From a virus, in IMG/VR virus record IMGVR_UViG_3300010885_013336, positions 1-43,726 of that record: a stretch of DNA of 43,726 nt; one strand, given 5' to 3'. The notes under the pieces were generated by a model that saw only the letters and a program-made list of their open reading frames with translations, did no database searches and was not told the origin of the DNA. Positions within the stretch are counted from its first letter, which is position 1, and each line of letters starts with the position of its first letter. A program made the translations under genes and the position numbers. Of this stretch, positions 7,688 to 37,752 are shown piece after piece.

Positions 7688-7706
7688 TGAAAGTATTTAA
7701 TTCTGA

Positions 7707-8723: not shown

Positions 8724-8735
8724 TTTTTTAATTCC

Positions 8736-10304: not shown

Positions 10305-10322
10305 TGTCTAACCCCTTTTAGT

Positions 10323-10330
10323 TATTTATG
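10323..10330 (-). promoter_or_regulatory. Late-promoter-like box CATAAATA before the 522-aa fibre gene
   Basis: On the - strand the 8-mer CATAAATA differs from the T4 late consensus TATAAATA only in the first base. It ends 18 bases before the ATG at 10304, with Shine-Dalgarno AGGGGT between them. The same spacing (18-21) is seen at three other boxes in this window. It begins right after the stop codon of the preceding gene. Confidence 0.45.
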
Positions 10331-14505: not shown

Positions 14506-14508
14506 TTA

Positions 14509-15117
14509 TTATACTCCGGCTAAACCAGTTAATGTTTGAATACGCACAGTATAATCTATTTGAATAAGTCTATTCAAAGATTTTTGCACAGGATGAAAAA
14601 TAACGTGTGTCAATAGTAAACTTTGATTTGTTGAACTGTATGACCGCAATCCTAATTCATCAAAAACGTAAGAAGAATTATTGTCAGTTGTATTATCAAA
14701 TGCTTGTTGATCGCTTGGCTCACCGTAATCAAGTAAACAAGTTACAAATACATCAGTGTAATTAGTGCCTGTTACGTGGCGGGGCTCAACAAAATTTCTA
14801 GTTGGGTCAACATTTGTGCTAGAACGATCGTCAACTACTTTATAATAAGTTCTATTATATAAACTTGAGTTAGTACCTGTTGTATTTGGTGACAAATATG
14901 TAATAATACCTGTAGGGTCTACTGCTGTACCACCGTTTCCAAAATCCATTTGATAAATGAATCCTTGTCCTGCATTGCCAAGGCTCTCTGCTAGGGCAAC
15001 ACTCATGTTTTCGTAATGTATTGCATTACGTTTATTAACATAAACTTCTTTCGTAGCAGGATCCCATATTTTAATATGTCCTTCTACGTGAACTCCGGAA
15101 AAATCCTTATTTTGCAT
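14509..15117 (-). CDS. Baseplate-region structural protein, 202 aa (gp8 position)
   Basis: This 202-residue protein lies between the giant protein and the fibres, where T4 has gp8 and gp9. It shows VEGHIKIWDPATKEVYVNKR near the N-terminus, FIYQMDFGNGGTAVDPTG in the first half, CLLDYGEPSDQQAFDN in the second, and the end FHPVQKSLNRLIQIDYTVRI. I recognise this as a conserved virion protein type of aquatic T4-like phages, but I cannot align it to T4 gp8 by eye. It starts a new late unit: GATAAATA lies 21 bases before the ATG, with AGAGAG as the Shine-Dalgarno. Confidence 0.65.
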   Translation of the reverse strand: MQNKDFSGVHVEGHIKIWDPATKEVYVNKRNAIHYENMSVALAESLGNAGQGFIYQMDFGNGGTAVDPTGIITYLSPNTTGTNSSLYNRTYYKVVDDRSSTNVDPTRNFVEPRHVTGTNYTDVFVTCLLDYGEPSDQQAFDNTTDNNSSYVFDELGLRSYSSTNQSLLLTHVIFHPVQKSLNRLIQIDYTVRIQTLTGLAGV

Positions 15118-15138
15118 GTTAAACTCTCTTTATCTTTA

Positions 15139-15146
15139 TATTTATC
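15139..15146 (-). promoter_or_regulatory. Late-promoter-like box GATAAATA before the 202-aa structural gene
   Basis: GATAAATA on the - strand, one base off the T4 late consensus, lies in the 46-base gap after the giant gene and 21 bases before the ATG at 15117. An identical octamer lies before the gp6-like gene. Confidence 0.5.
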
Positions 15147-15163
15147 TATCCACTTACCAGGGG

Positions 15164-18100
15164 TTATTTGTCTTGTATAAATCTCGAAATTGCATTATTA
15201 GAATGCGCTAACGAAGATCCTGCATCTGCCCATACATGCCCTGTACGCTTAACCAATGTTATTTTAGTCTCAGGACTTAGTGCAGTGGTTAAGCGTACTG
15301 TATTATTAGTTCCATCAACTGAAAAATCAGCTTCAAATTGGGCATCACCTTCAGGACTTTCGCTATGAGTCCGTGTATTATGTACTTTATAAGGAACCTT
15401 ACTTAGTCTGATATTACCTGTGAAAAATTCCCATTTTGTATCATCAAACTCTGTACTGCTAGTATGTGCAGTAGTGCATCGATAACTGTACGTTCCAAAG
15501 AACACAACATCACCTAGTGTATAAGAGACCTTTGCTGTCCATTCTCCAACAATGTTATACCCACCTACAAATATTTCAACGTCGTTTGATTGTCCGTGTG
15601 TTAGTGGAATTCCTGAATATGTAACAAGTTTAACAGTTCCAGATCCAGTAGCCGGGCCAGTGGCATAAAATCTATAACCTACAGTATTAATAGAAGAACC
15701 CGCTTCTGTAAAATCAGAACTTCCAATTTTAGTAATTTCACAATAGTCTCCAGCAGTTATTGCAGATGCAGAAATAGCCGACGATAATGATGTTTTTCTA
15801 TACCAAGTATTGCCCGGAGCGATAGTACTTGACGTGACTGCCGGTGTTACTTGGAAATCATAAGATAAAGATCCGTCACTTGTTTTTTGTTCAGTGTAGA
15901 TAGTATCTTTGTACGGGATTGTTTCACTTCGTCCAATATCTTGTACTACAGTGCCAGTTTCGTAAATTGGTCTTACACCAGTACCCAATGTTCCTCGACG
16001 TAGTTGGCTTAGAGTATTACCTTGCTTTTTGTAATACTCAATACGCTCACCAAAGATTTCAAGAATACCGGGCAATCTTAAATCAGGGTTAGGTTTACTT
16101 AATATTGAACCAGTCTCTACAACTATTGAAGTATCATTCCAGTGTAATGGTTGGGCTAACGCTGTTTGCTTAGTTGTTAATAATCGTTTATAATGAACTC
16201 GGTTTAACATATCTTTAAACTGCATAAACGCAAACTTTTCAATCACAATATTACTACTAAAGGTCATGATTGAAAACTGGTCATTAGTTTCTGGTGCTTG
16301 CTCTAAGTAAACTGATGCTAGATCTAAATTTAATTTATAATCAATATTTGGTTGTAATAATTTTCCATTTTTAGATAACCAAACATAACTGTTATTAATT
16401 ACAGGTCGTGTTAATTTAATATTTTTACCATAGATGCTTCGATAATCAAAATATTCTATAGAATCAGTATCTAAAGAAACACTTGAACTAACTGTACGAG
16501 CTGTTTGATTAATATCTAATACATTATGTTTGTAAAAACTGATAACGCTAATAGTTTGGCCAGCATCCGGTACTTGATCAAATGTAATTGTTCTACCATC
16601 GCAATGATAACTGTTATCTTGTATTACTGTTATCACTAACTGTTTACCAATATTACTGCTATAGACTTTAGAGTTAAGTATGACCGATACACCTGATAAG
16701 TCAACAGTGTAATCAGTAATTCGTTTTTTCTCAACTCCGTCAATGTATACAAAGAGGTTGTTAACAACTACACTATATGGTTGTACCTTATCCTTAGATA
16801 ACGAATATGTCGCCTGCTGTGATACAATAGTAAAATATTCAGTGCGCGGAGGCAAATAAACTGTGCCTGTATCAGACACTACTAACATATTAGATTCTAA
16901 AGGTTGTGCTGTTCCTACGTTGTTAACTAGTAGATACCCAGTGGATTCACCATCTGTTTCAAACGTTTCATTTTGCATCATGCTAAATGATTGGTCTGAC
17001 GAAGATGTGATTACATAATTTAATACGGCACCTTCATCAAGCGGCGTGCCAAATCTTATTCCAACTAGATTTGAAAATTCATAAGTGCTATCTGTATTGA
17101 ATAATACATAATCTAATACTTCTCCGTTTACGTATACTAAAGAAGATAGTGTAGACGACCAAGGAGCCTGTGTTACAAACTCAGAAGTGTTTCCATCTGC
17201 AATAAATGAATCTAAATCTAGTAAATTAGAACCATTGAATCCTGCGCTAATAATTGTGATTGCTTCTCCAACAGGGGGAACAGAATCTAACATAACTGAA
17301 TTATTTTTATAATCAATTGTATAATCTACATTTGGAACTAAAACTCTATCAACGTTAGTATATTTTACTATAATAGCGTTAGGAGAATTAGGGGTTTGCC
17401 CAATAGAGTAAACAGATTTGTCACCGTCTGAAATATAATTTTTAACAATCATGTTAGCGGATCCGTCGGTAGGACGAGTATGAACTTTAATTGCCACAGC
17501 ATCAGATATTTGACCAGGTACGCACTCTTCTGTGCCGCCACTAGTTGTAGGAGAAACAAAGTCGTCACCATCAACTATAATGTCGTCTGCGGCCAGTCCG
17601 GTTGCACTTGTATATGCCAAGTTTCCGCCCAATAACTCTGTATCATAGTCAATGTCTTGAGGTTTAATAGACCCGTCACTCGATTTCTTTCTAAAGATAA
17701 AAGTATCACCTGATAATACATTCAGTGTATTAGGAACATACATTGTATTGGCAACGCCATCACCTAAAAATATCTCCATAACTACATTTGGAGATTCAAC
17801 TAACGGTGTTCCAATATATAACGTATCGTCTAATCTTGTAAATTTCTTATTAGTATAGGTATAATCGTGTCCCAGTACAGTTATAGTTAACGGTGCTGCC
17901 GGTTTGAAATACGCATTAATTTCTTCCCCAATTGTTGGAATATAAGGTAAATCAATAGGATAATTTTTATTTTTAATTGTCATTAACCCAGTATCATCGT
18001 CAACTTCAAATAGAGCATCGCCAAAGATAGTACTCATAGTTATTTGCACCGAAGCTGAGAAAGAAGCTGCTGGTAAAATAATAACTTCAGTTGTTGCGCC

Positions 18101-21100
18101 TGAGCTTGCGTAGGTAAATTGATCACTATCAATTACTGTGACTACTACATCATTATTAATAAAAGTAGGATAATCCTCACCACCATCAATTGAAACAGTA
18201 TTTCCTGTGACTAGTCCATGAGGAACTTGTGTCCTAATTGTAACTGTTGGGTTATCTGCAAATACTAGGCCTGCTGCCTCAATCGTAGTTTCGCTAATGA
18301 TATCAAATACGCCTGGATCATAAGGATAGACTATAGTTACGCTGGTTAAACTTATTAAAGTTCCAATAAATTCACCGTTATAATTGTCATTGCTATTACC
18401 ACTGATTCTAAATTGATAATTAAATTCTGGAGGTAGTATTTGTTCTCTAAATGTAAATGTTACTACCAAGGTAGCTGTTATTGTCTCACTTACAATAAGT
18501 TGTTGTTTGCTGACAATATAAGTTCCCTCTGCACCAGTACCTGTGCCTAAAGAAAGTATGTATGTACCTTCAAGAATATCGTCACCATAGATCAACTGCC
18601 CCACAGCCAATGTTCCGCTAGTAACACTGGTAACATCTAAAATTGTACCGGCAGCTGAGAAGCCGTTGCTAATTGATCCAACAAACTCTGCAGGTCCAAT
18701 TGGTACAGTTGCTCCAGTTATTGTCAAAGAAGGAGTTGTAGATATTACTGCTGCTACATCATCTCCTGGATTTTCATAAGTGAATTCGTACTCACTTTTA
18801 ACTACATAGATAGGAACACTTGCTTGATTAAAATCTGGAATGTTAATACCTGTAATTGTAATCAATTGATCGTTTACATATCCGTGTGGTGTTTCTGTAA
18901 TTACTGCTACGTAGCCATTTTGTCTTCTTACGGACATAATTTTAGTCGAAGCAACTCTTATAACCGAGTAAATTGCCACTGGGTTGATAGGAGTCACTGA
19001 TTGTACATAATAAGAACTATTTGCAGGAATTCCGCCGATTGAAGATCCTGTAAATTCGATAGATCTTCCAACTGAAATATTTGAAATATCACTAATTTCA
19101 ATTATGTTACCATAAGCGTATGTTTGGATTGCAGTGCTAGAAATTATTTTATTACTGGCGCCAACTGTGATAATATAGTCGTCAAAGGTAGGATCTAAAG
19201 CATCCCATGCATCAGAGAACCAAGGTAAACTACCCCAGCCTTGGCTCACACTAAATCCAAAACCGCTAATTTGTACTCCGCCGTAGTCAACTCCTTTCAT
19301 TAGTTGACTTAACTCTTTACCAAATTCGTTGGTGCCCGGATTGTAATACCAATTGATACGATCAGCAGCCGATAGATAATTAAAATCTTTTGTATACGTT
19401 ATTTCAACCACTGCTCCTTTAGCCGGTGCAGTCACAAAAGTTAATACTCCATAACGACTAGTGTACCCTCTACTAGTTGTTTTCTTTGAGCTAAGAGAAT
19501 AGCTGTCCCTTAGTGCTGAAACTCCATCAATTAGTACCGTTGAATCTGTTAGATTAATGCTTGGACTCCATTTTAAATTAAACGAAGTTTGACTCCCAGA
19601 TGCTGAGAATGTTTCTGTGGCCTGTAACTCTGTTACATAATAGCGTCCGCTAGTTCTATCAAATTTAATATTAATATAATTTGACCTAACTAAACTGTTT
19701 CCTATTTGAGCAGACGCAGTTGCAGCCACGCCAGTTTCATCAAGACCCCCTTCAAACACTACTTCCGGAGGTTCAAAATATCCACTTCCTTTAGTTACCA
19801 AAGAAACTCTGTTTACATACCCATTGGTAATATATGCTTTAGCCACAGCGCCCGAGCCGCTAGTACCTCGAATAGTCACGGTCGGCGATGACAAATAATC
19901 CGAGCCGCCGTCTGTTATAACAATATCTATAACTTGAAATCCTACATTGTCATACCAATTTTTCCAAGGATCTTGTTCAACTATTGACAACTCACTGGTC
20001 ATTTTTCCGTCAACTACTTGTGTAGGAATTGTAGTTATTGCACCGTTTAAGTATACTGGCGATAAATCAAAATCTGTTACCACTGATCTAGCAGTGTCAA
20101 CTTTAGAATATGAACTTACAAATTCTCGAATTTTAGTCCTATAAGGCTTAACTTCAGATATGTATTGTTCAAAATCTGATAAATTATCGTTATTATAAGT
20201 TACTGTTTCTTTTAGCTCGCCAACATTGTGTTGTGCTCTAATAAAACTTGTTTTAAATGCCCAATCAACATACTGCTGTTCATTATGAACGTAGCGTAGG
20301 CTAGCAAAGAATAAATCTAGATATTCTTGTTTTAAATTATCTATTAAAATTTTATCTCTAACAGTTTCTAAAATAACACGCAGTTCTTTTACAGCAACAT
20401 TGTCAAATGCATCGCCATCATAAGAAGGACCGTCATAGCCTAAACCTGTATTTCTAAATTTATATAAAGTGCTCGAGAATTGAATTGTACCCTTTTCTCT
20501 GCCAACAACATTATAAGATTGTGTATAATCAACAGAGGTACTATCAGCATACTTCTCAAGTAGTAACCAGCCGCCAGAGCCAACTGTATTAATTTTTACA
20601 ACTTGTCCAATTTCAACACTAATAGATGATAGTTCATATAAAGCAGTTAGTGAAAAATTCACCGGAGTAAATTCTGTATATCCAGTTTGATACCAATCAG
20701 CATAATTCCAATATTTGCTAACATCGAAACTTTGGCTTTTAACTCTACTCCAAGTTTCTGTGGTTAGATCATAGGCGTGTATACTCCACTTGTCAAAGGC
20801 AGTAGAATCAAAATGTACTAATGCAGAGAATGGTCTAATTGATAATGTTGTATTACTAATATCATAACCTTCTCCAACATTTTCTATAATAACAGAACTA
20901 ACCCCGCCAACAATGCTCAACACTGTTTTAATTTTAGCATCAATACCCGAACCTGATATTATTAGGTAAGGGGCATTTACATACCCAGCACCGGTCTCAA
21001 TAATAGTAACATCAACAATTTTTCCATCTTCAATAACAGGAACTAACGAAGGAGTTCTTATAGAAGCAGTGCCCACTAATCTTAATTCGCTGTCGGTATC

Positions 21101-24100
21101 TTTGACAACATCATATTCTCCGTTAAGTTTAGCTGGTTCTTCTTCATAACTAGTCAAGTCAGTTAAGTCACACTCTTCAACAATAATATGTTTCATTAAA
21201 ATATCATTGACTCTTTCAATATATTGTTTTAATGCTTCGTATCTATTAATAAACATCCCTTGTCGAGGACGATTTTCAATACCGTAGCGCAGTTTAGGCG
21301 GCAACGATATATCAGGTATTACCCTATCATAAGAGTCTTTACCACACAGACTGTCAATCCATTTATTTTCAATTGATGCAGGTAAAGAAGTATTAATATC
21401 GTCACTGATTAGTTTCCATTGGTGATGACTATTGATTGTATAATCATCAATCAACCAATATTCAATGTATAAATTTATGTCAGTGCCTTTTAATAAATCT
21501 CTAACATTAACAAGACTAAAACTGTTTTTTCCGGTAAATGCAATATACTTATAACCAAACCCTTTTGGATTTTCAATTAAATTAGCAACATCTCTTGCTG
21601 AAATTGTACGGTCTTCTATGTTAGGTACTACTGTTTTATTTTTAACCCAGAAATAATATGTATTTTTAATTGTTTGAGCAATATTATCATAGGTCTGTTT
21701 AACACTATACGCAGAGTTACCATATAAACTTGTACCACTTATATTGTTGGCTAACCCTTCTTGAGTGTCGGCTATAGCATCCCAGTCTTCAGGCAACAAT
21801 GTTGATGCTACCCACTCATATACATCGATGCTTCCGCTAGTATACAATGTATTCCAAGTAGAATTTTGATAAACTATATCGCCATTATAACTATCTAAGA
21901 ATTTTGCATTGGTTAAATTCCACCATAACATACCAACATTTTTTGTAGTCCACGATTGTCCGTCGTCCACATTTAATTCTTCAGTTCCGATAGAATAAAT
22001 TGCAGGGTCATAGTAAGTTTTAAATTTAATTTCTTGATCGGCAATTCCAGCAATCTTACCTTGAACTGGATCAATAATATCTAAGTATTCTACTAATTCC
22101 TTAGTTTTCTTGTTGTATAAAAATACTTGTTTAATTTTTTCTAAATTAACAGTATCTATTTCTGTTCGATCGACTGCCCAAGATTTTTTACCTGATGCTT
22201 TAGTATAATCATAGACTGCGCCCGATACTAGCTCAGTATTAATAGCATACGGTGCAGATACAAGGATGTGATTATTATGTGCTTCAAATCCTGTACCATA
22301 TCTAGAAGCAGATGTGTTATATGCAGGTAAACTTTCTGAGAATATCCATTTTGTTGCATATCTATCATAAATGTCTACTCGTCCAGAATCCTCATCAAGA
22401 TCTATAATGGTCAACGCACCGTTATCAAATACCGTAGTGCTATCATCGAATGAGTAAGCAGTTCTATTATCACCATTAATGCTAAAGATTACTAGAGTAT
22501 CGCTGTCATTCATGAAGGATATCTTAGTACCAAACTTTTCGCCTTGTTCGGGATATGGTCTAATTATTGTTTGGAAAACCGTATACTCATCATCTATTTT
22601 TTTGTATATAGTTACCTTGCCTTGATCGATTAGCATATTATCTGCAAAGTTACTACTCACACCAATGTAAGTTCCATCATCACTAACAGTTACACTAGAG
22701 CCAAAGTGTTCGTGTGAGTTCGCTATTCCACTTAATGTGTCTAAGAGTGTTAAATTCTTATAGATGTATACTGCGCCGTCATTCTCATTAACACCAGGGG
22801 CTGAGATCAATAATGTACTGTTATCAGTTGATACTTCTAAACTTCTAGCAAGTACTGCGCCGCCAATGGTGCCATTAGAAGCCCAGTCTGTTGAGTCGTA
22901 ATCGAATCGATAAACTTTTCCTGAGTTATCAGATTGAGGAGCAGTTATTAATAACTTGTCATCATCAATAAATTTTAACACAGATCCAAAATATTCATTC
23001 TCACCTGATACTGGGGATATAAAAGTTTTATAGTAATTGTACTGGCCGTTAGTTTGTTTCTGATATAAAGTAACCATACCTTGGTTAGCGTAGGTACTGG
23101 TTCGTGCTTTAAAGGACAAAATGTTAGTGCCGTAGGCATGGTAGTTACCATCAAGCGGAGTTATATCTCCTACACTACCTGGCCTAGTTACTGAGAATAC
23201 ACTGTTAGTCACTGCTGTCATTGACCCAGAACTGGTTGCTACTTCAAATTTTGCGCCGCCAAATGTTTCGCTAATTGTAATTTGTGTATTGCTAAAAATT
23301 GAGTGGATATAATACCTAAAACCTGGAATAATTCCACCAAACCCTCGGCCGGTGAATACAATTTTCATGCCTACAACCATGCCTACTGTTGTGGCAACTG
23401 TGATTCGGAATACATCAACAGCGTTCACAGACGCAGTAGTCTTTGTAGTAGATGTATTAAGATTACCTATAGTTGCTGTTAATGCTCCACTAACTGTTGG
23501 GGTAATCAGTGTGCCAAGACTATTTTTAATGTTAATGCCGCCGGACACTATTTCTTTAACATAATAAGTTAAATCCCCAGGTACTAAAGGATCACCTCCT
23601 CTAATATTTAAATTGCCAAGATTAATTGTGTTAGTAGTAGTAGCATTAAAAACTACAGTCATTCCTACGTAAATTCCAACAGTGCTAGGAAGAGAAATTT
23701 TAGCAGTTGCCGCTGTAATTGTTGCTGTTGTTTGTAAATGTGCAGCAGATTGATAATAGTACGTAGCATCTGTTTGTATAACTTTAACATATTGAGAATC
23801 TTTAACAGATGCAGATGTACTCCATGTCACTGCTGTTTTAGTTATTTCTACAGGAACAACATCAAGTTCTGCCGGAAACTCTGTTTTTAATACTTTAGAT
23901 GCGTCCGGTGTGCCAACTGCCAACCATTCACTAGTACTAGAAAATGCCAGTGATGCACCAAACTCTCCTAGGGTAGTAGTTGAGATGTTAAAAGGTAATT
24001 CAAGAACTTGTCTAATTTGCCAAGGTGAGTTGTAACCAACTCTGTTGTAGACATGCACTTCATTTTTAGAATTAGAAACTGCAGAGTTTGATGCTGTTAG

Positions 24101-27100
24101 ATCAAGAGCAATCGATTTTCCAAACTGTAGACCGTTTTGAGGTCTTGAATAGCTAATTGTATCAACTGCATAGACAGAGGTATGCTTATACACTGACCAC
24201 TTTCCAGTGCCATTGTCATCGACCCATAACAATTCATTTGTCTTAATAACTTTTGGCATCCTAGGATTAGCATCATCAATAGACGATATACGTTGAGAAT
24301 CAAAATAGAATAATATTATTTGTGTGTAATCAACTGAGTCTGGATAGTCTGGTAATTCTTGTGATATTGTTATTACATTTAAACTAACTGAGGAAATTTT
24401 ATAAAACCCCTGAACTCCAATTGCATTTATAATTCCAATTACGTTGCCTTTGACTAGATTAATATCAGTGTTTACAGTTAGGGTCAAAACTGAATTAGTG
24501 TAACTGATATCTATTAATTTAAAATTAGTTTTTGTTAATCTATAAACATTCCAGTCTCGACCTTCAAATCCCGCCCATACATAATCACCTTCATTAAAGA
24601 GTGTGATGTCTCTTGTTAACATCTCATCAAGCGTTCCAACATTATCAGATACTTCATCGATCTTTACATAGCCCGGAGTTCTTAAATATGGTTGAGCATT
24701 AGCTTGTGTCGGCCAAGGATTAGAATTATAGCCTAGTGGTTTTAAATATATATCGTTGGGCGTCTGTCTAATAACAAAATCAAACAATGTATTATCAACT
24801 GTAGTAACTAACTCAACTGCTTGAGGATTACTTTTAAACAATGACTCATCTAATTCAAATTCAATTTCATCAAAAGCGTTAACTGATCCGTATTGTCCCA
24901 CTCGGACTGCCCACTCTTCAAAGAACTTAAGGCTTTCTAAATTATCAGCACTCAGTACATCAAACAATTTATTAAGTACATTTTGCGTACCTTTTTCGAT
25001 AATCATGCCTTGATAAAATTTATATTCTGAGATATCATCTTTAATAATATTTTCAAGGTACTGACGCTTCTGATATCCAATTAAATGTTGTGCAACTTTT
25101 TGTTGGCCGGCATCAAAGTTATCACTATCTAAACTGTAAAAATCTGTAAACTGTTCTGCTTTATAACTCCAATTAGGCAATAATTTAGATGTTGGTTTCT
25201 TATCTAATTTAATCCACAGAGTGCTGTCGAACTCAACTGCGCCGGAGATAAATGAACTTGCGCTGTAATAAAATTCTTTATACTTAACAGTATCGCCTAG
25301 GTTATAATCAGTCCATTCATTCCATGTTGAAATATTTGCTTGGTCATATATGAATCCTGGAATGTCAAAACCGCCATACCATCCAGTAGATGCATAACTT
25401 AATAGTTTAATTTTTTCTTGACGATATCCAGTAGTTGGTTGATAAATTGTATCATTAAATAATGTAGAATTATCTAATAATGCTATGTGCTCTTTTTGTA
25501 CAAAGTAAAAAGCAGCACCGTATATGCTGTCATTTCTTGGAGAATATTGTGTTTGATTTTCATCTCTGTATGAATTAATAAAATCTGGGTCAAGTTTAGT
25601 ACCGTCAACTTTAAAGAATTCATATACATTAAATTGATCCGTTATATCTTCTATCACAGAAAGATTACTGTTAATAGTTAATCCTTCAGCTGAAGGACTT
25701 AGTGCAAGTACGCTGGCACCCACTGTTGATAATTCTTCAAGTTTTCTGTAGTACCGTGCTTCAATATCAAAAAAGTCTCCAACAGTAACATCAATTAATA
25801 TTTCATAATAGTCGCCATTATATTGAACTATTTCTCCTGCACGGTACGATGTTTCTGGAGACCAGTCAGCCCACTTATCTTCACCGTTAGACCAATTTTG
25901 TGTAGTCCAGAATAAAAATTCTTTAGCACTGGTTATCCAATTAGTTACTTCTTCAAGATTAGTATTAAATGTATCAAATACAAAACCTTGATCTTTTAAG
26001 TATTCACCGTAGCCTACTAAGAAATCAACTACTTCTTGAATTGTTCTAAATTTTGTTCCGTAGGCAACTGTAACAGGCTCTGTACGATCCCATGACGTTC
26101 TAATCATTGCATCCTTGCCGCCAGTAATAGGTAATGCTGATAAAGGTTGATAATATCTAGAATCAAAAGAAGATCCGGTTGTGTGGGTTGTAGATGATCT
26201 ATAATAGGCGTTATTGTATTGAACAATTTTTCCGCCGAGGTATTGTTGATCAGAGGTCCAGATAGAATACGACTCACTTATTCCGCCGATGTTAATTTTA
26301 TATCCTGGATTTATCCAAGGGTAATAATAAAAGTACGGATTAGATTTACTGTATCCTTTTACTTCATAGCCAGTAGATAGCTTAGTAATGATCACTCCGC
26401 TGTACACAATCTTCTTGATAGGGCTTGAGCTGTTTAAAAAGATAGAAAAGTTTTCTTGAGGAACATATACTCCGCCAACAGCCGTTGGATTTTTAGAATC
26501 CAATAACAAATTAAATTTCTCTTTTTCTGTAAATCCCGAGACTCTGTAGGCCAGTTGAATAGTACTATTAACTAGATCGTACTTGTATTGTGTTAAAGAT
26601 CTTTGATTATCGCTTTGTATATAATCAATAATATAATTAACAAGGCCTGCGGTTTGTACTCGGATGCTGTCTGTATAAACGCTGGGTGTTACTATATCTT
26701 TTAATTGTAATCTTAAACTAGTGTCTTTATAAACAAGTTGTCCAGATTGATCGCGAATAATTCGCGAGCGATCAAATAATACACCCATTACTCTTGCAGG
26801 GTATGTCAATAAAAGTGCAGATATAACACTGAACGGATAGTAAGAACTACGGCGCCATGCAGCTTCTATTGGGCTGTTGTCGCCAAAGATAAAATCGTTA
26901 CTACTAGTATATTCTACTGCTCCACTAATTAAATTTGTATCAATTGGCGATTTTAATTCGCCATACTCGTTAACTGGGATATAATCCATTAGATAGGGCT
27001 TGGCATAACCCTCGGCTCGAGCTTCAGGCATCCCGGGTACTTTAATTTTACTTTCTGATATATCTTGCCACATAACTGTATTATCAGATGTATAAGGCGC

Positions 27101-30100
27101 TTGACCATACAGAGTTTCCCACCAATCAGGCATTATTGAAAATCCCAACATTTCCCAAGGACATAGGTGAGGTCTATCAGTATCGTAGACCCATTTATAT
27201 AATCCTCTCCAATAACCCGGAGAAGGTCTGCCATCTGGAGCAGTTACAGACGAATAATTAAAGGTAAAAGGACTAGCTTTATCATACGACAACGGTTTAG
27301 TAAAATCTCTACCTATGAAACTTGTCCATTGATAAAAATTAGGTGCTAATACTTTATTGAATTCTGCTAGTGTATAATCATTAGTTACAGCGTATCTAGG
27401 AATTAAATCATCAACGTTAAAAATAGTTGGATCATATTTAATTTTAATATTATTAAAGATACGTTTTTCTAACTCTAATAATAAATCATCTCGATAATCA
27501 CCATAGGCTAAAATAATACTACCATCATGTCCTTGTATTACTTCACGAGGAGTAATCAAAGTTGTATCTAAAAATTTCATCGGCTCGTACTTTGGCCACA
27601 TACCAAGTTTAGTGGGAGTAGATGGCACAAAACTGCCATCAGTACTATCATACTCAACTATAGTAATTACATCTTTATTTTCAATCTGCGGTCTGCTGGT
27701 TAATACTATAAATCCTTCTGAATTAAATGTATAATCTAATTCATATAATAGTTGTTCATTGTTTAGATAAACTAGTACAGCTTTTGTACTTAGAGTATCA
27801 AGGGTAAAAGTAGCTGATAGCGGATATGTTTTAATTCTATAATCAACTACTGTAATATTAGTGGTAATGGCAGCACCAAATGCTACCATATCGCTAAAAT
27901 AATATGATGCTGTTTTAGGTTTATTTTTATTAAGTTCGTTTAAAATTAAATCAACAAATTGAACTGGTGCAGTATCAATGCCTAAATTTTCTGATACACT
28001 GATAAAACTACGCTTAAATGCGCCATAGTCATTTTTAGATTGTTCTAGCGCCTTTATAATGTTATTTGATTTATTAGTAATGTGGTATAATGCCAATGGC
28101 AATGGGCCAGCATGTTGTACAAATCTTGTTCCATAAGGGCTTACATTTCCTAGATCTCTAAGATTACTTGATCCGAGATATACTCCTTCAAACGTATATA
28201 AGTTATCAATAATTGTATCAACGTGATCGATTACTTCGCCAAGAGTAAATTCAATGACAGAGTCATTCATTGGATTATTTTGTAAATTAATAGGTACTTC
28301 ATAATACCCATTACTGTTCTTTGCTTGTACTGCAAAAGTTTTTAAAGTAATAACATCAACTGAAGAATACGATATCTCATCTGCTAACATTAGATCGATA
28401 TCTAAATGAACATATTTAAATTTGGTTCCGTTTTTAACTTCCCAATACTTTTTATCTAATCGTTTTCCGTTTAAGTATACCCTAACTTCTAGATCTAATA
28501 GATCAGTAATGTTATCGTAGACATCAATATTAAAATCATTTGTCTGATTAATGTCTCTATAAATTCTAACAACAGGTTGATATCGATCAACCTTGCTAAT
28601 TTCCCAACCAGATACAAGAGAAAGATTATCCACGCCTGATGCTTTAATTAACTTGCCAAGAGCAACCGAACGAGTTTCTACGGTAGTTGCACTTTTAAAA
28701 ATAAAAGTATCACTTAGAATATTAAAATTAAAAACTATATCTCCAATGTTATTAATATTTTTATAAGATAACGGAAATCCTAGTTTACTATCATCAACGC
28801 CTGAACCAACTTTGTAGGAAAATAATTTTGTACCTATGAATGTTGACGATCCATAAACGGTAATATTACCGTAACTTGTGCCATCTTGATCAACTATATC
28901 AAATAACGGAGCTTGATTAACCCCTGTCTTGTTTTGTGCTAACACCCAGCTAGACTGATCATACCAATACATTAACCCTTGATTTTTTAAACCATACTTA
29001 ACTAACACTGTTGCAAAATTAAATGGAGTAGTCTCTTCTACTAGATGTATTTGGCGGCGAATTGGTTCGCCAGGTGGCGTGACATTTATAAAATCAACTC
29101 GATATATTTTATTTTTTACCAGTATATCAGTATCAGCAACAAACAATATACGCTGATTTTGTATTAGTCTAACACCGTCAATTGCATAGCCTAGTTGGCC
29201 TTCAATTGTTGAAAACACATCTGCTGTAACAGTGTCTATTAAATCAACATCAAGTGTTGCTTCAATTCCAAAATTGTATAATTTTAGACCTGCTTGGAAT
29301 TCAATAATAGGACGTATTGCCCTAACATCTTGATCTAAAGAAGCAATCTGTCCGTTGATTTTTGCGCTAGTTTTGATCACATCTTGGTGGAACCATCGAT
29401 TGTATCTTGACCAAGGATTCTTATCTGTGCTGGCCCTGTTGATAGTGAGATAATCTTTTGATGTACCGTATGAGGTTGCTACATCAAACGAATATTGGTC
29501 AAACGGTGTATCATCAAAAGGTACTGAGAAACTATCAGAAAAACTAGTTATAATCTCTAAGTCTCTTTCATTTATTAGAGTAATACTAGTACCTACGCCT
29601 TCTACATAAAACAATCCTTGGGCATATTTTTCAGGAGTTATTTGACCTCTAAATTTTAATTTCATCCCGTTACTAAGAGGTGTGCCGTCGGGTAATTTAT
29701 AAGTTCTTTTGCCGATTAATTGATTTTCAACATCAATTTCAGTGTTATCTTTAATGTCATATATTTTAAAAACTCCACCTAGGTCAGCATTATTTTCACT
29801 TACGTAGTAAAGAATTTTAGGAGCATTTAACGGAATAGTTATAGAGATTGTACCTTTTTCTATTGCAAAGGTTGTTAGATCGCCCCAATCATAACGGTCT
29901 TGGTCACCGAGTGATTTTTCAGTTTTAATACTAAATGGCTCCCCTGGGCTAACAATCTCAAAATTGTAAGTTTGTCCCCTGTATAATTTTAATGCGGGAT
30001 TTCGAGTTAGTCCGTTAGGAGTAAACAAATACTCCTTGTAACCCATCGCATCATCTACTTGTACAGTATATGTACTGTCAATTTTACGTTGATTTCCATA

Positions 30101-30574
30101 AACCTCAACAACACTGGGTCCGTAGGGCAACCAATAATATTGTTGGAAATTTACAAATTTATCCCAATCAATGTGCGGATTCCATGAATATAATTCTTGT
30201 CGATTTAGGCGTTCATGATTAGACACGTCAGCGCCAAGTACACTTAGTTGATTAATATAATCAATATAGTCTTTATAAAACTCAACATTATCCAGTGTGT
30301 CTTTTACAACCATTCCCGGTTCTAATTGATAATTCTTTCGTTGGCTGTCAACTGCGCTTACAAAGATATCTGATGTTGTAGATGACTTAGCATTTTGTCT
30401 ACCAATAAATCCCGTAACTTTTTTTACTGCGCCGGGTTGTGTAAGTTGATCAAGCGTTGCTTGAATAAACTTTTTATTAGTATCCGTTCTATAATATCGA
30501 GGAATCAGTTCAGAATTTTTTCTTTTTTGATTTCCAGATATTGGAACTGGATTTTCAGATTGATTGTTGCTCAT
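15164..30574 (-). CDS. Giant modular tail/baseplate structural protein, 5136 aa (gp7 position)
   Basis: One uninterrupted frame of 15.4 kb fills over a third of the window. Residues 1-150 (RYYRTDTNKKFIQATLDQL, FIGRQNAK, YKDYIDYINQL, FVNFQQYYWLPYGP) form a conserved head I associate with large virion proteins in the gp7 position of aquatic T4-like phages. Further in lie three carbohydrate-binding-like modules near 1436-1480, 1566-1615 and 1750-1795, and an FG-GAP-like propeller at about 2150-2790 split by a Thr/Val-rich insert (2237-2475). There are GxGY repeats near 3190 and 3554-3610, a YISEVKPYRTKIREFV motif near 3475, and beta repeats of the VYVNGEV...DY type at about 4275-4900. A fourth binding-like module lies at 5009-5055, and the C-terminus is TGHVWADAGSSLAHS. 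It is probably baseplate-attached and exposed. Shine-Dalgarno GGAG lies before the ATG, 11 bases after gp6. Confidence 0.8.
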   Translation of the reverse strand: MSNNQSENPVPISGNQKRKNSELIPRYYRTDTNKKFIQATLDQLTQPGAVKKVTGFIGRQNAKSSTTSDIFVSAVDSQRKNYQLEPGMVVKDTLDNVEFYKDYIDYINQLSVLGADVSNHERLNRQELYSWNPHIDWDKFVNFQQYYWLPYGPSVVEVYGNQRKIDSTYTVQVDDAMGYKEYLFTPNGLTRNPALKLYRGQTYNFEIVSPGEPFSIKTEKSLGDQDRYDWGDLTTFAIEKGTISITIPLNAPKILYYVSENNADLGGVFKIYDIKDNTEIDVENQLIGKRTYKLPDGTPLSNGMKLKFRGQITPEKYAQGLFYVEGVGTSITLINERDLEIITSFSDSFSVPFDDTPFDQYSFDVATSYGTSKDYLTINRASTDKNPWSRYNRWFHQDVIKTSAKINGQIASLDQDVRAIRPIIEFQAGLKLYNFGIEATLDVDLIDTVTADVFSTIEGQLGYAIDGVRLIQNQRILFVADTDILVKNKIYRVDFINVTPPGEPIRRQIHLVEETTPFNFATVLVKYGLKNQGLMYWYDQSSWVLAQNKTGVNQAPLFDIVDQDGTSYGNITVYGSSTFIGTKLFSYKVGSGVDDSKLGFPLSYKNINNIGDIVFNFNILSDTFIFKSATTVETRSVALGKLIKASGVDNLSLVSGWEISKVDRYQPVVRIYRDINQTNDFNIDVYDNITDLLDLEVRVYLNGKRLDKKYWEVKNGTKFKYVHLDIDLMLADEISYSSVDVITLKTFAVQAKNSNGYYEVPINLQNNPMNDSVIEFTLGEVIDHVDTIIDNLYTFEGVYLGSSNLRDLGNVSPYGTRFVQHAGPLPLALYHITNKSNNIIKALEQSKNDYGAFKRSFISVSENLGIDTAPVQFVDLILNELNKNKPKTASYYFSDMVAFGAAITTNITVVDYRIKTYPLSATFTLDTLSTKAVLVYLNNEQLLYELDYTFNSEGFIVLTSRPQIENKDVITIVEYDSTDGSFVPSTPTKLGMWPKYEPMKFLDTTLITPREVIQGHDGSIILAYGDYRDDLLLELEKRIFNNIKIKYDPTIFNVDDLIPRYAVTNDYTLAEFNKVLAPNFYQWTSFIGRDFTKPLSYDKASPFTFNYSSVTAPDGRPSPGYWRGLYKWVYDTDRPHLCPWEMLGFSIMPDWWETLYGQAPYTSDNTVMWQDISESKIKVPGMPEARAEGYAKPYLMDYIPVNEYGELKSPIDTNLISGAVEYTSSNDFIFGDNSPIEAAWRRSSYYPFSVISALLLTYPARVMGVLFDRSRIIRDQSGQLVYKDTSLRLQLKDIVTPSVYTDSIRVQTAGLVNYIIDYIQSDNQRSLTQYKYDLVNSTIQLAYRVSGFTEKEKFNLLLDSKNPTAVGGVYVPQENFSIFLNSSSPIKKIVYSGVIITKLSTGYEVKGYSKSNPYFYYYPWINPGYKINIGGISESYSIWTSDQQYLGGKIVQYNNAYYRSSTTHTTGSSFDSRYYQPLSALPITGGKDAMIRTSWDRTEPVTVAYGTKFRTIQEVVDFLVGYGEYLKDQGFVFDTFNTNLEEVTNWITSAKEFLFWTTQNWSNGEDKWADWSPETSYRAGEIVQYNGDYYEILIDVTVGDFFDIEARYYRKLEELSTVGASVLALSPSAEGLTINSNLSVIEDITDQFNVYEFFKVDGTKLDPDFINSYRDENQTQYSPRNDSIYGAAFYFVQKEHIALLDNSTLFNDTIYQPTTGYRQEKIKLLSYASTGWYGGFDIPGFIYDQANISTWNEWTDYNLGDTVKYKEFYYSASSFISGAVEFDSTLWIKLDKKPTSKLLPNWSYKAEQFTDFYSLDSDNFDAGQQKVAQHLIGYQKRQYLENIIKDDISEYKFYQGMIIEKGTQNVLNKLFDVLSADNLESLKFFEEWAVRVGQYGSVNAFDEIEFELDESLFKSNPQAVELVTTVDNTLFDFVIRQTPNDIYLKPLGYNSNPWPTQANAQPYLRTPGYVKIDEVSDNVGTLDEMLTRDITLFNEGDYVWAGFEGRDWNVYRLTKTNFKLIDISYTNSVLTLTVNTDINLVKGNVIGIINAIGVQGFYKISSVSLNVITISQELPDYPDSVDYTQIILFYFDSQRISSIDDANPRMPKVIKTNELLWVDDNGTGKWSVYKHTSVYAVDTISYSRPQNGLQFGKSIALDLTASNSAVSNSKNEVHVYNRVGYNSPWQIRQVLELPFNISTTTLGEFGASLAFSSTSEWLAVGTPDASKVLKTEFPAELDVVPVEITKTAVTWSTSASVKDSQYVKVIQTDATYYYQSAAHLQTTATITAATAKISLPSTVGIYVGMTVVFNATTTNTINLGNLNIRGGDPLVPGDLTYYVKEIVSGGINIKNSLGTLITPTVSGALTATIGNLNTSTTKTTASVNAVDVFRITVATTVGMVVGMKIVFTGRGFGGIIPGFRYYIHSIFSNTQITISETFGGAKFEVATSSGSMTAVTNSVFSVTRPGSVGDITPLDGNYHAYGTNILSFKARTSTYANQGMVTLYQKQTNGQYNYYKTFISPVSGENEYFGSVLKFIDDDKLLITAPQSDNSGKVYRFDYDSTDWASNGTIGGAVLARSLEVSTDNSTLLISAPGVNENDGAVYIYKNLTLLDTLSGIANSHEHFGSSVTVSDDGTYIGVSSNFADNMLIDQGKVTIYKKIDDEYTVFQTIIRPYPEQGEKFGTKISFMNDSDTLVIFSINGDNRTAYSFDDSTTVFDNGALTIIDLDEDSGRVDIYDRYATKWIFSESLPAYNTSASRYGTGFEAHNNHILVSAPYAINTELVSGAVYDYTKASGKKSWAVDRTEIDTVNLEKIKQVFLYNKKTKELVEYLDIIDPVQGKIAGIADQEIKFKTYYDPAIYSIGTEELNVDDGQSWTTKNVGMLWWNLTNAKFLDSYNGDIVYQNSTWNTLYTSGSIDVYEWVASTLLPEDWDAIADTQEGLANNISGTSLYGNSAYSVKQTYDNIAQTIKNTYYFWVKNKTVVPNIEDRTISARDVANLIENPKGFGYKYIAFTGKNSFSLVNVRDLLKGTDINLYIEYWLIDDYTINSHHQWKLISDDINTSLPASIENKWIDSLCGKDSYDRVIPDISLPPKLRYGIENRPRQGMFINRYEALKQYIERVNDILMKHIIVEECDLTDLTSYEEEPAKLNGEYDVVKDTDSELRLVGTASIRTPSLVPVIEDGKIVDVTIIETGAGYVNAPYLIISGSGIDAKIKTVLSIVGGVSSVIIENVGEGYDISNTTLSIRPFSALVHFDSTAFDKWSIHAYDLTTETWSRVKSQSFDVSKYWNYADWYQTGYTEFTPVNFSLTALYELSSISVEIGQVVKINTVGSGGWLLLEKYADSTSVDYTQSYNVVGREKGTIQFSSTLYKFRNTGLGYDGPSYDGDAFDNVAVKELRVILETVRDKILIDNLKQEYLDLFFASLRYVHNEQQYVDWAFKTSFIRAQHNVGELKETVTYNNDNLSDFEQYISEVKPYRTKIREFVSSYSKVDTARSVVTDFDLSPVYLNGAITTIPTQVVDGKMTSELSIVEQDPWKNWYDNVGFQVIDIVITDGGSDYLSSPTVTIRGTSGSGAVAKAYITNGYVNRVSLVTKGSGYFEPPEVVFEGGLDETGVAATASAQIGNSLVRSNYINIKFDRTSGRYYVTELQATETFSASGSQTSFNLKWSPSINLTDSTVLIDGVSALRDSYSLSSKKTTSRGYTSRYGVLTFVTAPAKGAVVEITYTKDFNYLSAADRINWYYNPGTNEFGKELSQLMKGVDYGGVQISGFGFSVSQGWGSLPWFSDAWDALDPTFDDYIITVGASNKIISSTAIQTYAYGNIIEISDISNISVGRSIEFTGSSIGGIPANSSYYVQSVTPINPVAIYSVIRVASTKIMSVRRQNGYVAVITETPHGYVNDQLITITGINIPDFNQASVPIYVVKSEYEFTYENPGDDVAAVISTTPSLTITGATVPIGPAEFVGSISNGFSAAGTILDVTSVTSGTLAVGQLIYGDDILEGTYILSLGTGTGAEGTYIVSKQQLIVSETITATLVVTFTFREQILPPEFNYQFRISGNSNDNYNGEFIGTLISLTSVTIVYPYDPGVFDIISETTIEAAGLVFADNPTVTIRTQVPHGLVTGNTVSIDGGEDYPTFINNDVVVTVIDSDQFTYASSGATTEVIILPAASFSASVQITMSTIFGDALFEVDDDTGLMTIKNKNYPIDLPYIPTIGEEINAYFKPAAPLTITVLGHDYTYTNKKFTRLDDTLYIGTPLVESPNVVMEIFLGDGVANTMYVPNTLNVLSGDTFIFRKKSSDGSIKPQDIDYDTELLGGNLAYTSATGLAADDIIVDGDDFVSPTTSGGTEECVPGQISDAVAIKVHTRPTDGSANMIVKNYISDGDKSVYSIGQTPNSPNAIIVKYTNVDRVLVPNVDYTIDYKNNSVMLDSVPPVGEAITIISAGFNGSNLLDLDSFIADGNTSEFVTQAPWSSTLSSLVYVNGEVLDYVLFNTDSTYEFSNLVGIRFGTPLDEGAVLNYVITSSSDQSFSMMQNETFETDGESTGYLLVNNVGTAQPLESNMLVVSDTGTVYLPPRTEYFTIVSQQATYSLSKDKVQPYSVVVNNLFVYIDGVEKKRITDYTVDLSGVSVILNSKVYSSNIGKQLVITVIQDNSYHCDGRTITFDQVPDAGQTISVISFYKHNVLDINQTARTVSSSVSLDTDSIEYFDYRSIYGKNIKLTRPVINNSYVWLSKNGKLLQPNIDYKLNLDLASVYLEQAPETNDQFSIMTFSSNIVIEKFAFMQFKDMLNRVHYKRLLTTKQTALAQPLHWNDTSIVVETGSILSKPNPDLRLPGILEIFGERIEYYKKQGNTLSQLRRGTLGTGVRPIYETGTVVQDIGRSETIPYKDTIYTEQKTSDGSLSYDFQVTPAVTSSTIAPGNTWYRKTSLSSAISASAITAGDYCEITKIGSSDFTEAGSSINTVGYRFYATGPATGSGTVKLVTYSGIPLTHGQSNDVEIFVGGYNIVGEWTAKVSYTLGDVVFFGTYSYRCTTAHTSSTEFDDTKWEFFTGNIRLSKVPYKVHNTRTHSESPEGDAQFEADFSVDGTNNTVRLTTALSPETKITLVKRTGHVWADAGSSLAHSNNAISRFIQDK
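26747..26775. repeat. Nested palindrome inside the giant gene
   Basis: TTGATCGC (26747-26754) and GCGATCAA (26768-26775) are perfect inverted arms. Inside and overlapping them, TCGCGAAT (26751-26758) and ATTCGCGA (26760-26767) form a second, nearly loopless hairpin. It lies in coding sequence (residues near 1270) and is GC-rich compared with its surroundings. No function can be assigned. Confidence 0.5.
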
Positions 30575-30585: not shown

Positions 30586-33500
30586 TTATGCGCTGGTAAT
30601 ATTTTGTTGTGTTAATGAAGTGGGTGATATTGTAGTATCGCCCGAAGCTTTTATAGTAGTTGCTGTGATATTTGTAACAATTTCAATGTTGTCAACGGTA
30701 GCTCCATTGATAAACAACTGATCCGACTCTGCTGTTATTTCAAATAAGCTACCAAAGGTAAGACCGCTGGCCTTAGGAACTATTACAAAATTAGTTAGTA
30801 AAGGGGCAAGTCGATTCATAACATACGTTGACAACTCTGTAAAGTAAAACTTATCTCCAAAGTCCCAATTTTCTAAAGCAAAAAATTCGTTTATTGCTGA
30901 AAGAACATTTGCTTTAATCTCGTTGTCGCTAGAAACTTGAGCTGTATTTTTTATCACCTTAAATGTTGCTTGTAGATCTAAGGCAGCATCTGGGCCAAAC
31001 AATACTTTATATTTTACCGGGTGATATATAATTTCATCGCTTATAGATTTAATTAAATTTAATGACGGTGCTAGAGTTTGATACAGTGTATCTGAACTAG
31101 GAGCCAATGGTTCGTACTCTAAACTACCATTTAGCCACTGTCTAAATTGTACATCGTAAGTCTTAGTTAAGACAAAAATATCTATAATGTTGCTCATACC
31201 TGGATCAATTCTTGATTCGTAATCAGCATTATGCACATATTGAAACTTGATGTTATCTCGTCCTTGATAAACCCTATAATCTAAAGATGCCACTAGTCTA
31301 CCCAGTGTCTTATTCAATTTTTTAACAACTGCTGTTGTTGTAAAATAAAAATATTGGCCGTCAACATATTGCGCTGTACTTCCGATAGCAGTTTCAGTTT
31401 CAAATATCAGCACAGTCTCAGCTGCATTAGACACATATCGATAATCCTCTTGTCCTTGCTCTATTGTATATTTTTCTAAAGTAATATACTTTGTCAATGG
31501 ATTAACTGTGGGCTGAACTAGCTGAGTAAATAACTCAGGATTATCTACAATGCCATCGTCATTTGAATCTGCAAATGTGATTTCAATTTTCTTACTATCT
31601 TTATAACCATCGAGCCCTTTAAATTCGTTACTAATTTCCCATGCTAAATTAGTGGTAAAAGGACTAGTACTGCCGCCCGGTTGTGTATTAATGTTTAGTA
31701 CGTTAATTTCATCTCTAACTATTAAATTAGTTGTACTATCATAAACTTTGTTAGTTTTATCAAAGTAAAAACGAAGTTGTTTATCGCTTTCAAAGACATA
31801 TCGCAACAGTCGACTAGTAACTGTATATTGCTCTTTGTTTGTTGTAAACAGTAACAACCAACTAGCATTTTTTTGTTGGTTAGTGTTATCGTTTTCTTTA
31901 TCTAAGCTAAAAGGAGACTTAGCATCTAAGTTTGTTTCAAAAATTATCTCCCAAGATTTAGTATCAGTACTATATCTTAGTCCAAAAGATTTATTGGCAA
32001 ATATTAGATCAATCATCGTAGCAATAGTGCTAGCATCTAAAGTAGTTCGCCATTTTGGTATAACTTGAGTTATTGTAGGACGGGTAATACTTGTTGGGGA
32101 AATATAGATATTAGGAATCACTGTATTCAATACTACCGGACCAAGGCCTGTTGATAATGTGCCTGTGCCTCCCGCAGTACCGTCACCCGAAACTGAAACT
32201 ACCGTGGCCCATATTTCATTAGCCGAGTTTAAAGAGGTAGCGGTACCTTGTATTAATTCATTATTTTTATCGGTTTGAAAATAGTAACCAGTTGGTGCTT
32301 TAAATTTAATTAACGATCCTACTTCAACGTATTTTAAATTAGTGGTTGTGTAACTTCCTACTTTAAATTTAGCAGAATCTATTACCGATGATTCAAAGTA
32401 TCCTGTACTTTCACTAGTATCGCTGGTTACATTTCTCCATTTAATTTCTAATGTTTCAACGTTAATATTTTTAAATTTTCCATAGTAAAAATTTCTTAAG
32501 TTGTTATCTTTAAGGGCATCTAGTACATTATTGTAGATGACGCTTTCAACATCAGTCTGAGATACAAATGTAAAATTAAAAAAATCTGTGTACTCTTGCT
32601 TGTAAAGAATGCCGTCAGTGGCAAAAATATTTGTTGACGAATATTTTCCTGTAGGATCTTTCAAGTCAAAATATCTACTAATGCCGCTACTAGCTCTGTT
32701 TACACTTTTTATTTTTGCCACGTCTTGATTAACAGACAAGGGACTAATATTATAGTCTTCGCCGGTGATCATTCTATTTTGTGTATAGTAAGTTGCAGGT
32801 GCGTTAGCTTTAATATTAGTATTAGATTCTGTAGGAACACTGTTACTAACGCTGGTCTGTAAATTTAAACTAATTGATAACGTTTCTCTCTGGCCAACAT
32901 TTGAGATGTAGGGAATATCAATTGCCACGCTCTTTAAATCTTTAGGATTAATTGTGTAAGTTAAACCGTTGCTAGTTCTATAATAAGTTCTAAATGTGCC
33001 TAACGGTAAATTACCAAATGTGCCATCGCTGAATGCTAGGCTAACTCGATCGCCAACTCGACTAACAACGCCATAGATGTTCTTGATATTTTTCTTTAGG
33101 CTGTTATAGATAACATTGTTGCCTTCAAAGCTAGGAACTTTTGCCCATTCTTCTGTTTCTAATCCGTTCTTATCTAAACGATGTAACCATACATCTGAGT
33201 CATTAATGTTAATAGCATCAATATCAATTGACTCGTTATTGTTGGGTTGTGTAATAGAAAACGACCCTTGATTTAGGGTACCTTGACGGAAATGTAGGAA
33301 GAATCCCGTATTAACACTGGCTGCTCCTCGGCCGTCATCTCGATATAAAAATGCTAGATGATTACCAATGCGAGGAGTTTCTTCATAGATATAGTCTTGC
33401 CCGCTAATTGATGTAGACACAATTTCAAAGCTCATTGTTCTACCGTCAATTGATTTATTAAACGCATACACAGGAACATCAGTATTAATACCCTGTATTC

Positions 33501-34062
33501 TATATTGTTCTGTGGGAATTCCATAGATTGTATTTTTATCCTCTGGGCTTCCGTACTGATTAGACTGTGATAAAGATGCGTTGATAATTTTAATAAATTG
33601 GTCGTACCAATTTGCATTAGCAGGGTCATTCCATACAACTAATTGTCCTGAAAGATTTCGGCTGTTTGAATCTAGTACATTTTGAGTTGTTCTTACGCTG
33701 CCAAACTTTAATAGTCCGTTTGCTGTTTGATTACGTTTAGCATTATAGCTTAGTAAACGTGCTAGACGTAGCACACTTTCGCGACGCTCTGCTAGTTCTA
33801 AGAAGTTTTCACGGGCATTTAAATCAACACGGAAAGCTATGCTTTGGCCCAAAAATGCAATAAGGTCAATTAGGGCAAGGTATTCTGATGATTCAATGTA
33901 GTCGTTGTAATCTTCTGGGTAATTTTGACGAATGTAGGAGATCATTGTCCTACGTAGATTTTCAAAGTCGTAGCTCTGGAAGTCAGCATTACGGAAAGAC
34001 TGGTATACTTTTTTCCAGTCCTCTGCTACTAATAATCTATTTTGTCTATCGGTTGATGACAT
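30586..34062 (-). CDS. gp6: Baseplate wedge protein gp6-like, 1158 aa
   Basis: This gene lies directly after gp25, as in T4, and encodes the wedge protein that links neighbouring wedges into the baseplate ring. The N-terminus is typical of the gp6/J family in aquatic T4-like phages: WKKVYQSFRNADFQSYDFENL, then YIRQNYPEDYNDYIESSEY, LIAFLGQSIAFRVDLNAREN and RRESVLRLARLLSYN. The gpJ-like part follows with ITGEDYNISPL and IKSVNRASSG around residues 425-465. At 1158 aa it is longer than T4 gp6 (660 aa). The end is a helical and beta region (NEFFALENWDFGDKFYFTEL) also seen in gp6/J-type proteins. GATAAATA lies 18 bases upstream. Confidence 0.85.
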   Translation of the reverse strand: MSSTDRQNRLLVAEDWKKVYQSFRNADFQSYDFENLRRTMISYIRQNYPEDYNDYIESSEYLALIDLIAFLGQSIAFRVDLNARENFLELAERRESVLRLARLLSYNAKRNQTANGLLKFGSVRTTQNVLDSNSRNLSGQLVVWNDPANANWYDQFIKIINASLSQSNQYGSPEDKNTIYGIPTEQYRIQGINTDVPVYAFNKSIDGRTMSFEIVSTSISGQDYIYEETPRIGNHLAFLYRDDGRGAASVNTGFFLHFRQGTLNQGSFSITQPNNNESIDIDAININDSDVWLHRLDKNGLETEEWAKVPSFEGNNVIYNSLKKNIKNIYGVVSRVGDRVSLAFSDGTFGNLPLGTFRTYYRTSNGLTYTINPKDLKSVAIDIPYISNVGQRETLSISLNLQTSVSNSVPTESNTNIKANAPATYYTQNRMITGEDYNISPLSVNQDVAKIKSVNRASSGISRYFDLKDPTGKYSSTNIFATDGILYKQEYTDFFNFTFVSQTDVESVIYNNVLDALKDNNLRNFYYGKFKNINVETLEIKWRNVTSDTSESTGYFESSVIDSAKFKVGSYTTTNLKYVEVGSLIKFKAPTGYYFQTDKNNELIQGTATSLNSANEIWATVVSVSGDGTAGGTGTLSTGLGPVVLNTVIPNIYISPTSITRPTITQVIPKWRTTLDASTIATMIDLIFANKSFGLRYSTDTKSWEIIFETNLDAKSPFSLDKENDNTNQQKNASWLLLFTTNKEQYTVTSRLLRYVFESDKQLRFYFDKTNKVYDSTTNLIVRDEINVLNINTQPGGSTSPFTTNLAWEISNEFKGLDGYKDSKKIEITFADSNDDGIVDNPELFTQLVQPTVNPLTKYITLEKYTIEQGQEDYRYVSNAAETVLIFETETAIGSTAQYVDGQYFYFTTTAVVKKLNKTLGRLVASLDYRVYQGRDNIKFQYVHNADYESRIDPGMSNIIDIFVLTKTYDVQFRQWLNGSLEYEPLAPSSDTLYQTLAPSLNLIKSISDEIIYHPVKYKVLFGPDAALDLQATFKVIKNTAQVSSDNEIKANVLSAINEFFALENWDFGDKFYFTELSTYVMNRLAPLLTNFVIVPKASGLTFGSLFEITAESDQLFINGATVDNIEIVTNITATTIKASGDTTISPTSLTQQNITSA

Positions 34063-37740: not shown

Positions 37741-37752
37741 GCTATGGCACTA
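37623..37752 (-). other. Frameshift window in the baseplate hub gene
   Basis: The upstream frame can only be left between an in-frame TAG of the downstream frame (37750-37752) and the TAA of the upstream frame (37623-37625). Protein continuity places the change near codon 261 (TGG AAC GAT GGG), where one extra base would give WN then RWAHSD. No canonical X_XXY_YYZ slippery heptamer is present in the right phase; the closest, C-AAA-AAG near 37630, is too far downstream. A one-base deletion, real or from sequencing, is the simplest reading. Confidence 0.6.

Follow-up and report, generated by a model that had tools for sequence, protein, structure and literature searches.

A giant modular structural protein encoded directly after gp6 and its candidacy for the gp7 role

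Introduction

In contractile tails, one gp7-type chain and two gp6 chains make up the core bundle (PMC10457771). No representative of the third chain of this clamp has been recognised among the jumbo phages searched, which were RaK2-like, PA5oct-like and Atu_ph07-like. Here, we analysed a 43,726-nucleotide virus record from IMG/VR, hereafter the window, in which the gene lying directly after gp6 encodes a protein of 5136 residues. The question was whether this giant takes the place of gp7. A sequence-only reading had put it in the gp7 position, with a gp7-like fold in residues 1-1200 named as the support to look for, and had regarded the resulting merger of wedge anchor and adhesin as unusual.

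Frame, family and conservation of the giant protein

The minus strand at positions 15164-30574 contains a single open frame of 5136 codons plus stop, without internal stop, which confirms the unbroken 15.4-kb frame reported earlier with no strand given, and the product is indeed five times longer than T4 gp7 (1032 aa). The two remaining frames of the same strand have 382 and 730 stops, and a plus-strand reading was discarded as it is full of stops. Among 80 relatives fetched from IMG/VR, the complete ones range from about 4074 to 5193 aa and others reach at least about 5197 aa. The occurrence of relatives of such size indicated that the length of the giant is no assembly accident.

When submitted as four overlapping segments, the giant matched PHROG 10938 ("virion structural protein") with E values of 6.9e-144 (residues 1-1200), 4.2e-122 (residues 1001-2200), 2.2e-58 and 3.3e-37, the matches extending from the N-terminus to about residue 3540. 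As judged from this profile, which runs over the conserved blocks, and from the position of the gene directly downstream of gp25-gp6, the giant is a new member of a widespread and largely uncharacterised family, and it is ordinary for its clade. Named relatives are 121Q gp582 (3323 aa), RaK2 ORF070 (3326 aa, with no mention in the main text of the RaK2 paper), CBB_236 (3340 aa), the Cassandra protein (3857 aa; 3.9 kaa for PA5oct/Cassandra), Atu_ph07 gp180 (4449 aa) and the Phosso protein (4555 aa), together with phAPEC6 gp245 and SCTP-2 gp140. RAS14 contributes a divergent member (3138 aa, E 1e-45), and a scan of IMG/VR returned 392 relatives. Relatives on record already number in the hundreds, and cyanophages have counterparts that are larger still, so the giant is no novelty by size.

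The window protein and its named relatives have in common two conserved blocks, residues 1-2050 and 2780-3540 (the latter at 19955-22237), both retained even in RaK2-like phages, as well as the place after gp25-gp6. It differs from them by its larger size (5136 versus 3323-4555 aa), by extra copies of the CBM5/12 module and by a long clade-specific C-terminus. Residues 2250-2500 and 3850-4200 are variable, and residues 4250-4900 are conserved only within the close clade. Thus, of the conserved head and tail proposed from the letters, the head holds well, but the tail end does so only among close relatives.

Two relatives have been detected in purified virions by mass spectrometry, CBB_236 with 21 unique peptides (PMC5259590) and phAPEC6 gp245 (381.88 kDa) with 17 peptides (PMC7247149). 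Absence from virions had been named as an observation that would speak against the proposal; the reverse is the case for these two proteins, which are relatives and not the product of this phage. These detections support the notion of a large modular structural protein encoded after gp25-gp6 and endowed with carbohydrate-binding-type modules.

Gene order around the giant protein

Read 5' to 3' on the minus strand, the genes are those of a virion structural protein (38817-39803), a small baseplate wedge subunit (38518-38817), a virion structural gene broken into two pieces (36058-38516), a gp5-like hub protein (34559-36058), gp25 (baseplate wedge subunit/sheath initiator, 34110-34556; PHROG 261 and PHROG 43), gp6 (baseplate wedge subunit, 30586-34062; PHROG 10646, E 1.9e-294, and PHROG 219), the giant, a conserved 202-aa protein (14509-15117; PHROG 11259, of unknown function) and three fibre-like proteins. 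The gp6 protein is 1158 aa long, versus 660 in T4. Its gene was found directly upstream of the giant in all 92 IMG/VR relatives with upstream sequence (median gap, 14 bp), and also in 121Q, CBB, Cassandra, Atu_ph07 and Phosso.

The 202-aa protein follows the giant in 18 of 29 relatives; it showed neither gp8 similarity nor a Pfam match, and none of the other ORFs scanned in the window matched gp8 either. Hence, the T4 order gp25-gp6-gp7-gp8 that had been read into the locus is borne out by PHROG matches for its upstream part, gp25 and gp6, but not at the gp8 position, where the 202-aa protein stands.

Modular organization of the giant protein

The N-terminal segment (residues 1-150; 30125-30574) is present in all named relatives. 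It is followed by a cupredoxin-like insert (residues ~160-290; 29705-30097), brought out by AlphaFold2 with Foldseek matches to rusticyanin and CueO, and by tblastn. This insert is absent from RaK2-like relatives, and tblastn showed it to be common to cyanophage gp9 and tail-fibre proteins. The copper ligand motif appeared in 1 of 63 rows, that is, the ligands have been lost in the clade of the window protein. Unlike this clade, Syn19 gp9 has kept the C..H motif of the domain.

Four CBM5/12-like modules were located, beginning at residues 1439, 1568, 1751 and 5012. Pfam recognised three stretches within residues 1001-2200 (9.1e-12), and Foldseek matched the fold to the binding domains of chitinases and deacetylases with TMt up to 0.77. 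The first module (residues ~1437-1469; 26168-26266) has the same position in Phosso, Atu_ph07 and Cassandra. The second (residues 1568-1615; 25730-25873; Pfam PF02839, Foldseek chitin-binding domains) and the third (residues 1751-1800; 25175-25324) lie between the two candidate halves of a gp7-like core described below. The fourth (residues 5012-5050; 15425-15541) is located near the C-terminus, where the Pfam match at residues 5011-5041 was near the cutoff (8.7e-6, just under it). No CBM5/12 was detectable in 121Q, indicating that the binding modules are not universal in the family.

Further downstream, FG-GAP-type repeats (residues ~2145-2780; 22235-24142), found by Pfam (FG-GAP_2, 8.7e-5) and by motif scan and interrupted by a variable insert at ~2250-2500, probably form a beta-propeller. 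The second conserved block then includes a short GxGY-type module (residues ~3165-3245; 20840-21082) found repeatedly in cyanophage giants. A related module of GxGYxxPPxV type (residues ~3547-3630; 19685-19936) occurs in cyanophage giants as well as in a neck protein and a component of the baseplate wedge. Modules of this GxGY type also recur in further virion proteins of cyanophages. The remainder is a clade-variable C-terminal region (residues ~3840-5136; 15167-19057). The description of the centre as a string of repeats and binding-like modules therefore stands for the binding-like modules (CBM5/12, FG-GAP) but not for strict repeats: self-BLAST gave none at E<=0.1, and TRF none within the gene. 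Other searches added little: phmmer and profile searches of PDB sequences yielded weak chitin-binding domains only, NCBIfam provided no useful match, and a fold search of BFVD returned mainly family members and CBM proteins.

Search for a gp7 fold and a gp7 core

The model of residues 1-960 (AlphaFold2, 63 sequences, pLDDT 82, pTM 0.72) matched cupredoxins in the PDB, and by position and alignment the domain responsible was that at ~160-290. The model of residues 960-2050 (pLDDT 77) matched chitin-binding domains and fibre proteins. In both cases, gp7 was absent among the 50 Foldseek matches listed. A gp7-like fold within residues 1-1200 was thus not found, and an N-terminal gp7 core, unsupported by profile or fold, was rejected.

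Direct sequence searches pointed in the same direction. A Pfam scan of the giant at E<=1 did not bring up Baseplate_wedge (PF23786), and gp7 core HMMs run directly on the giant were not significant. The gp7 core profile gave nothing at E<=1 in ten whole genomes of relatives; the positive controls of this search were T4, P-SSM2, Syn19 and S-SCSM2R, three of which had contributed to the model. No other ORF of the window emerged as gp7. RAS14, considered as a bridging sequence, proved to be a family member without a clear gp7 core.

In T4-type phages, the gp7 core consists of a helix-turn-helix (HTH) followed by an FYxxKGTxxSxxxLF segment. Aligned undivided with the 1450-2040 block of the giant by hhalign, it reached a probability of only 1.4%. 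The family has a long insertion there, and a signal emerged once the core was divided. Each half was taken through a profile-profile comparison with 53 windows of the giant's family; in positive controls, T4-evens versus the rest gave 99.3% and 82.7%. The HTH half scored best of the 53 windows at ~1512-1535 (P 0.003, probability ~10%) and the KGT half at ~1859-1880 (P 8.7e-5, probability 60-62%, over a match of only 22 columns), both P values coming after several alignments and windows had been tried. With the full-family alignment, the KGT half scored 25.2, whereas 200 column-shuffled controls did not exceed 19.3 and the reversed control gave 9.0.

The first candidate half is a helix-turn-helix at residues 1505-1564 (25883-26062), with modelled helices at 1512-1529 and 1546-1564. 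The second is a helical segment at residues 1840-1905 (24860-25057), whose motif FYxGxIxxKG[TS] recurs in all 74 long members, RAS14 and 121Q among them; the helices at 1802-1876 were modelled mostly at pLDDT < 50. Thus, a weak gp7-like signal seems to be present in two collinear pieces, ~1512-1564 and ~1853-1880. Because only 22 columns matched and the direct HMM searches were not significant, we take it as a lead, not as proof.

T4 gp7 (PF23786) and the giant have in common the genomic slot after gp6 and, as far as the candidate segments are concerned, the order of an HTH followed by an FY..KGT-type segment. They are set apart by the lack of a significant direct sequence or fold match and by the lack of a gp8 found downstream of the giant. 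Since no gp7 core turned up elsewhere in the ten genomes and the adjacency to gp6 is strict, we infer by elimination that the giant is a positional candidate for gp7. The search for gp7 is thereby narrowed to one giant protein and two short segments. We did not file the giant as gp7, because several tests that define gp7 came out negative.

Comparison with the giant gp7 proteins of cyanophages

Giants at the gp7 position are on record. The gp7 of P-SSM2 (5195 aa, annotated "baseplate wedge initiator") lies between gp6 and gp8, and Syn19_088 (6483 aa) and S-SCSM2R_104 (5172 aa) both directly follow gp6. The view that an anchor-plus-adhesin of this size would be unusual was therefore overstated. 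Syn19 matched the gp7 core HMM at 1.2e-38 and a second model, in the whole-genome search, at 5.2e-22, being part of neither model. S-SCSM2R and P-SSM2 also matched, but both had been part of the models. PF23786 picked up S-SCSM2R at 1.6e-5 and P-SSM2 at 0.0099, in neither case reaching the cutoff set by Pfam. Syn19_088 belongs to the cluster T4-GC969, which has been found in S-SM1 virions (PMC3037559). According to a published view, cyanophages and pelagimyophages have VrlC in place of gp7 (PMC7029224). This misfits the clear gp7 core that we observed at the start of the Syn19 (10655-30106) and P-SSM2 (3006-18593) giants (coordinates of the examined loci).

Like the window giant, the cyanophage giants are modular, are encoded directly after gp25-gp6 and contain the short GxGYxxPPxV module. 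They have a clear gp7 core that begins N-terminally, whereas the window giant has only the weak core-like signal mid-protein. Homology over the whole length was rejected, as only short modules are in common. Collectively, T4-superfamily phages, cyanophages and jumbo phages alike, share a habit of placing very large strings of modules on the protein after gp6.

The two halves of the gp7 core are separated by ~85 aa in P-SSM2 and S-SCSM2R and by ~550 aa in Syn19. If the core of the window giant does lie at 1512-1880, the insert with the CBM modules would occupy the insertion point of cyanophage gp7 and would be exposed at the baseplate periphery. XM1 gp17 (242 aa) is a minimal gp7 ortholog in which a loop of the core domain, residues 80-106, binds the tail spikes (PMC10457771). 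That loop has ~27 residues, as against ~290 with CBM5/12 modules in the candidate core of the giant. Desulfovibrio phage 7757 was also noticed to encode a short protein of gp7-like type: its unannotated 586-aa product (8971-10728 of the examined locus), directly after a gp6-like ORF, has the core N-terminally.

Possible role of the giant protein

We favour the view that the giant is a wedge structural protein of a T4-superfamily jumbo phage, that it fills the gp7 role and that it carries its own surface-binding modules. It probably works in gp7's place, and an anchor-plus-adhesin role is plausible as an extension of the known trend. Together with two gp6 chains, the mid-protein helical core (~1512-1564 plus ~1853-1880) would form a (gp6)2-gp7-type bundle clamping the baseplate. 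The outer face of the baseplate would then present the insert between the core halves with its two CBM5/12 modules, as well as the propeller and the C-terminal half, all of which may contact a cell-surface glycan or hold fibres. In this picture the clamp itself would bear surface-binding modules, and specificity would come from the fibres encoded just downstream. A bolder version, which we hold to be improbable, is that the wedge organiser is itself the primary surface sensor: glycan-binding modules in the gp7 core loop and on outer arms would strain the (gp6)2-gp7 clamp and trigger contraction without separate fibres.

Another possibility was that the giant is a baseplate-peripheral adhesin or fibre-network protein whose gene merely adjoins that of gp6, the gp7 role being taken by an unrecognised small protein, such as the 202-aa neighbour, or by the enlarged gp6. 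We consider this unlikely, yet it has several points in its favour: the various binding-type domains of the giant, a cupredoxin-like domain common to cyanophage fibres and gp9, the lack of a significant direct gp7 match and of gp7 among the Foldseek matches listed, and a gp6 of 1158 aa as compared with 660 in T4. It fits poorly with the adjacency of the giant to gp6 in every relative examined, with the fact that the strongly conserved helical segments are those matching the gp7 core pieces, and with the failure to find another gp7 core in the ten whole genomes of relatives.

A giant scaffold without homology to gp7 might also have replaced gp7, and perhaps gp8/gp10, outright, the weak motif match then reflecting convergence of a short helical pattern. 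The shortness of the gp7 signals (22 columns, at profile level only) and the lack of a gp8 found in the window would agree with such a replacement. Against it stand the matches of both halves in the proper order and an insertion point matching that of cyanophage gp7. We give this explanation a small chance only.

Other features of the window

The virion structural gene at 36058-38516 consists of two overlapping ORFs of 297 and 560 aa, which form one continuous frame in the listed relatives holding both parts. The frame change, near 37.6-37.7 kb, probably stems from faulty assembly or sequencing, or else from a real mutation. It shows that base errors are possible on this contig, but the idea that the contig is a chimera yielding a falsely long giant frame has virtually no chance and is already refuted by the relatives, since collinear proteins of similar length and 45-75% identity are encoded on independent contigs.

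Directly beyond the 202-aa gene, three consecutive fibre-like genes (722, 669 and 522 aa; 8736-14505, minus strand) encode proteins with homologous N-terminal regions of ~170 residues (32-39% identity) that diverge afterwards. One of the three has a tail collar and a Gp10_C-like end. This arrangement suggests one attachment module with different tips. Further along the minus strand, at 3003-7302, a run of five ORFs (360, 306, 213, 278 and 277 aa) was noticed; two of them were tested and gave no Pfam match, and several of the five look glycosyltransferase-like by eye.
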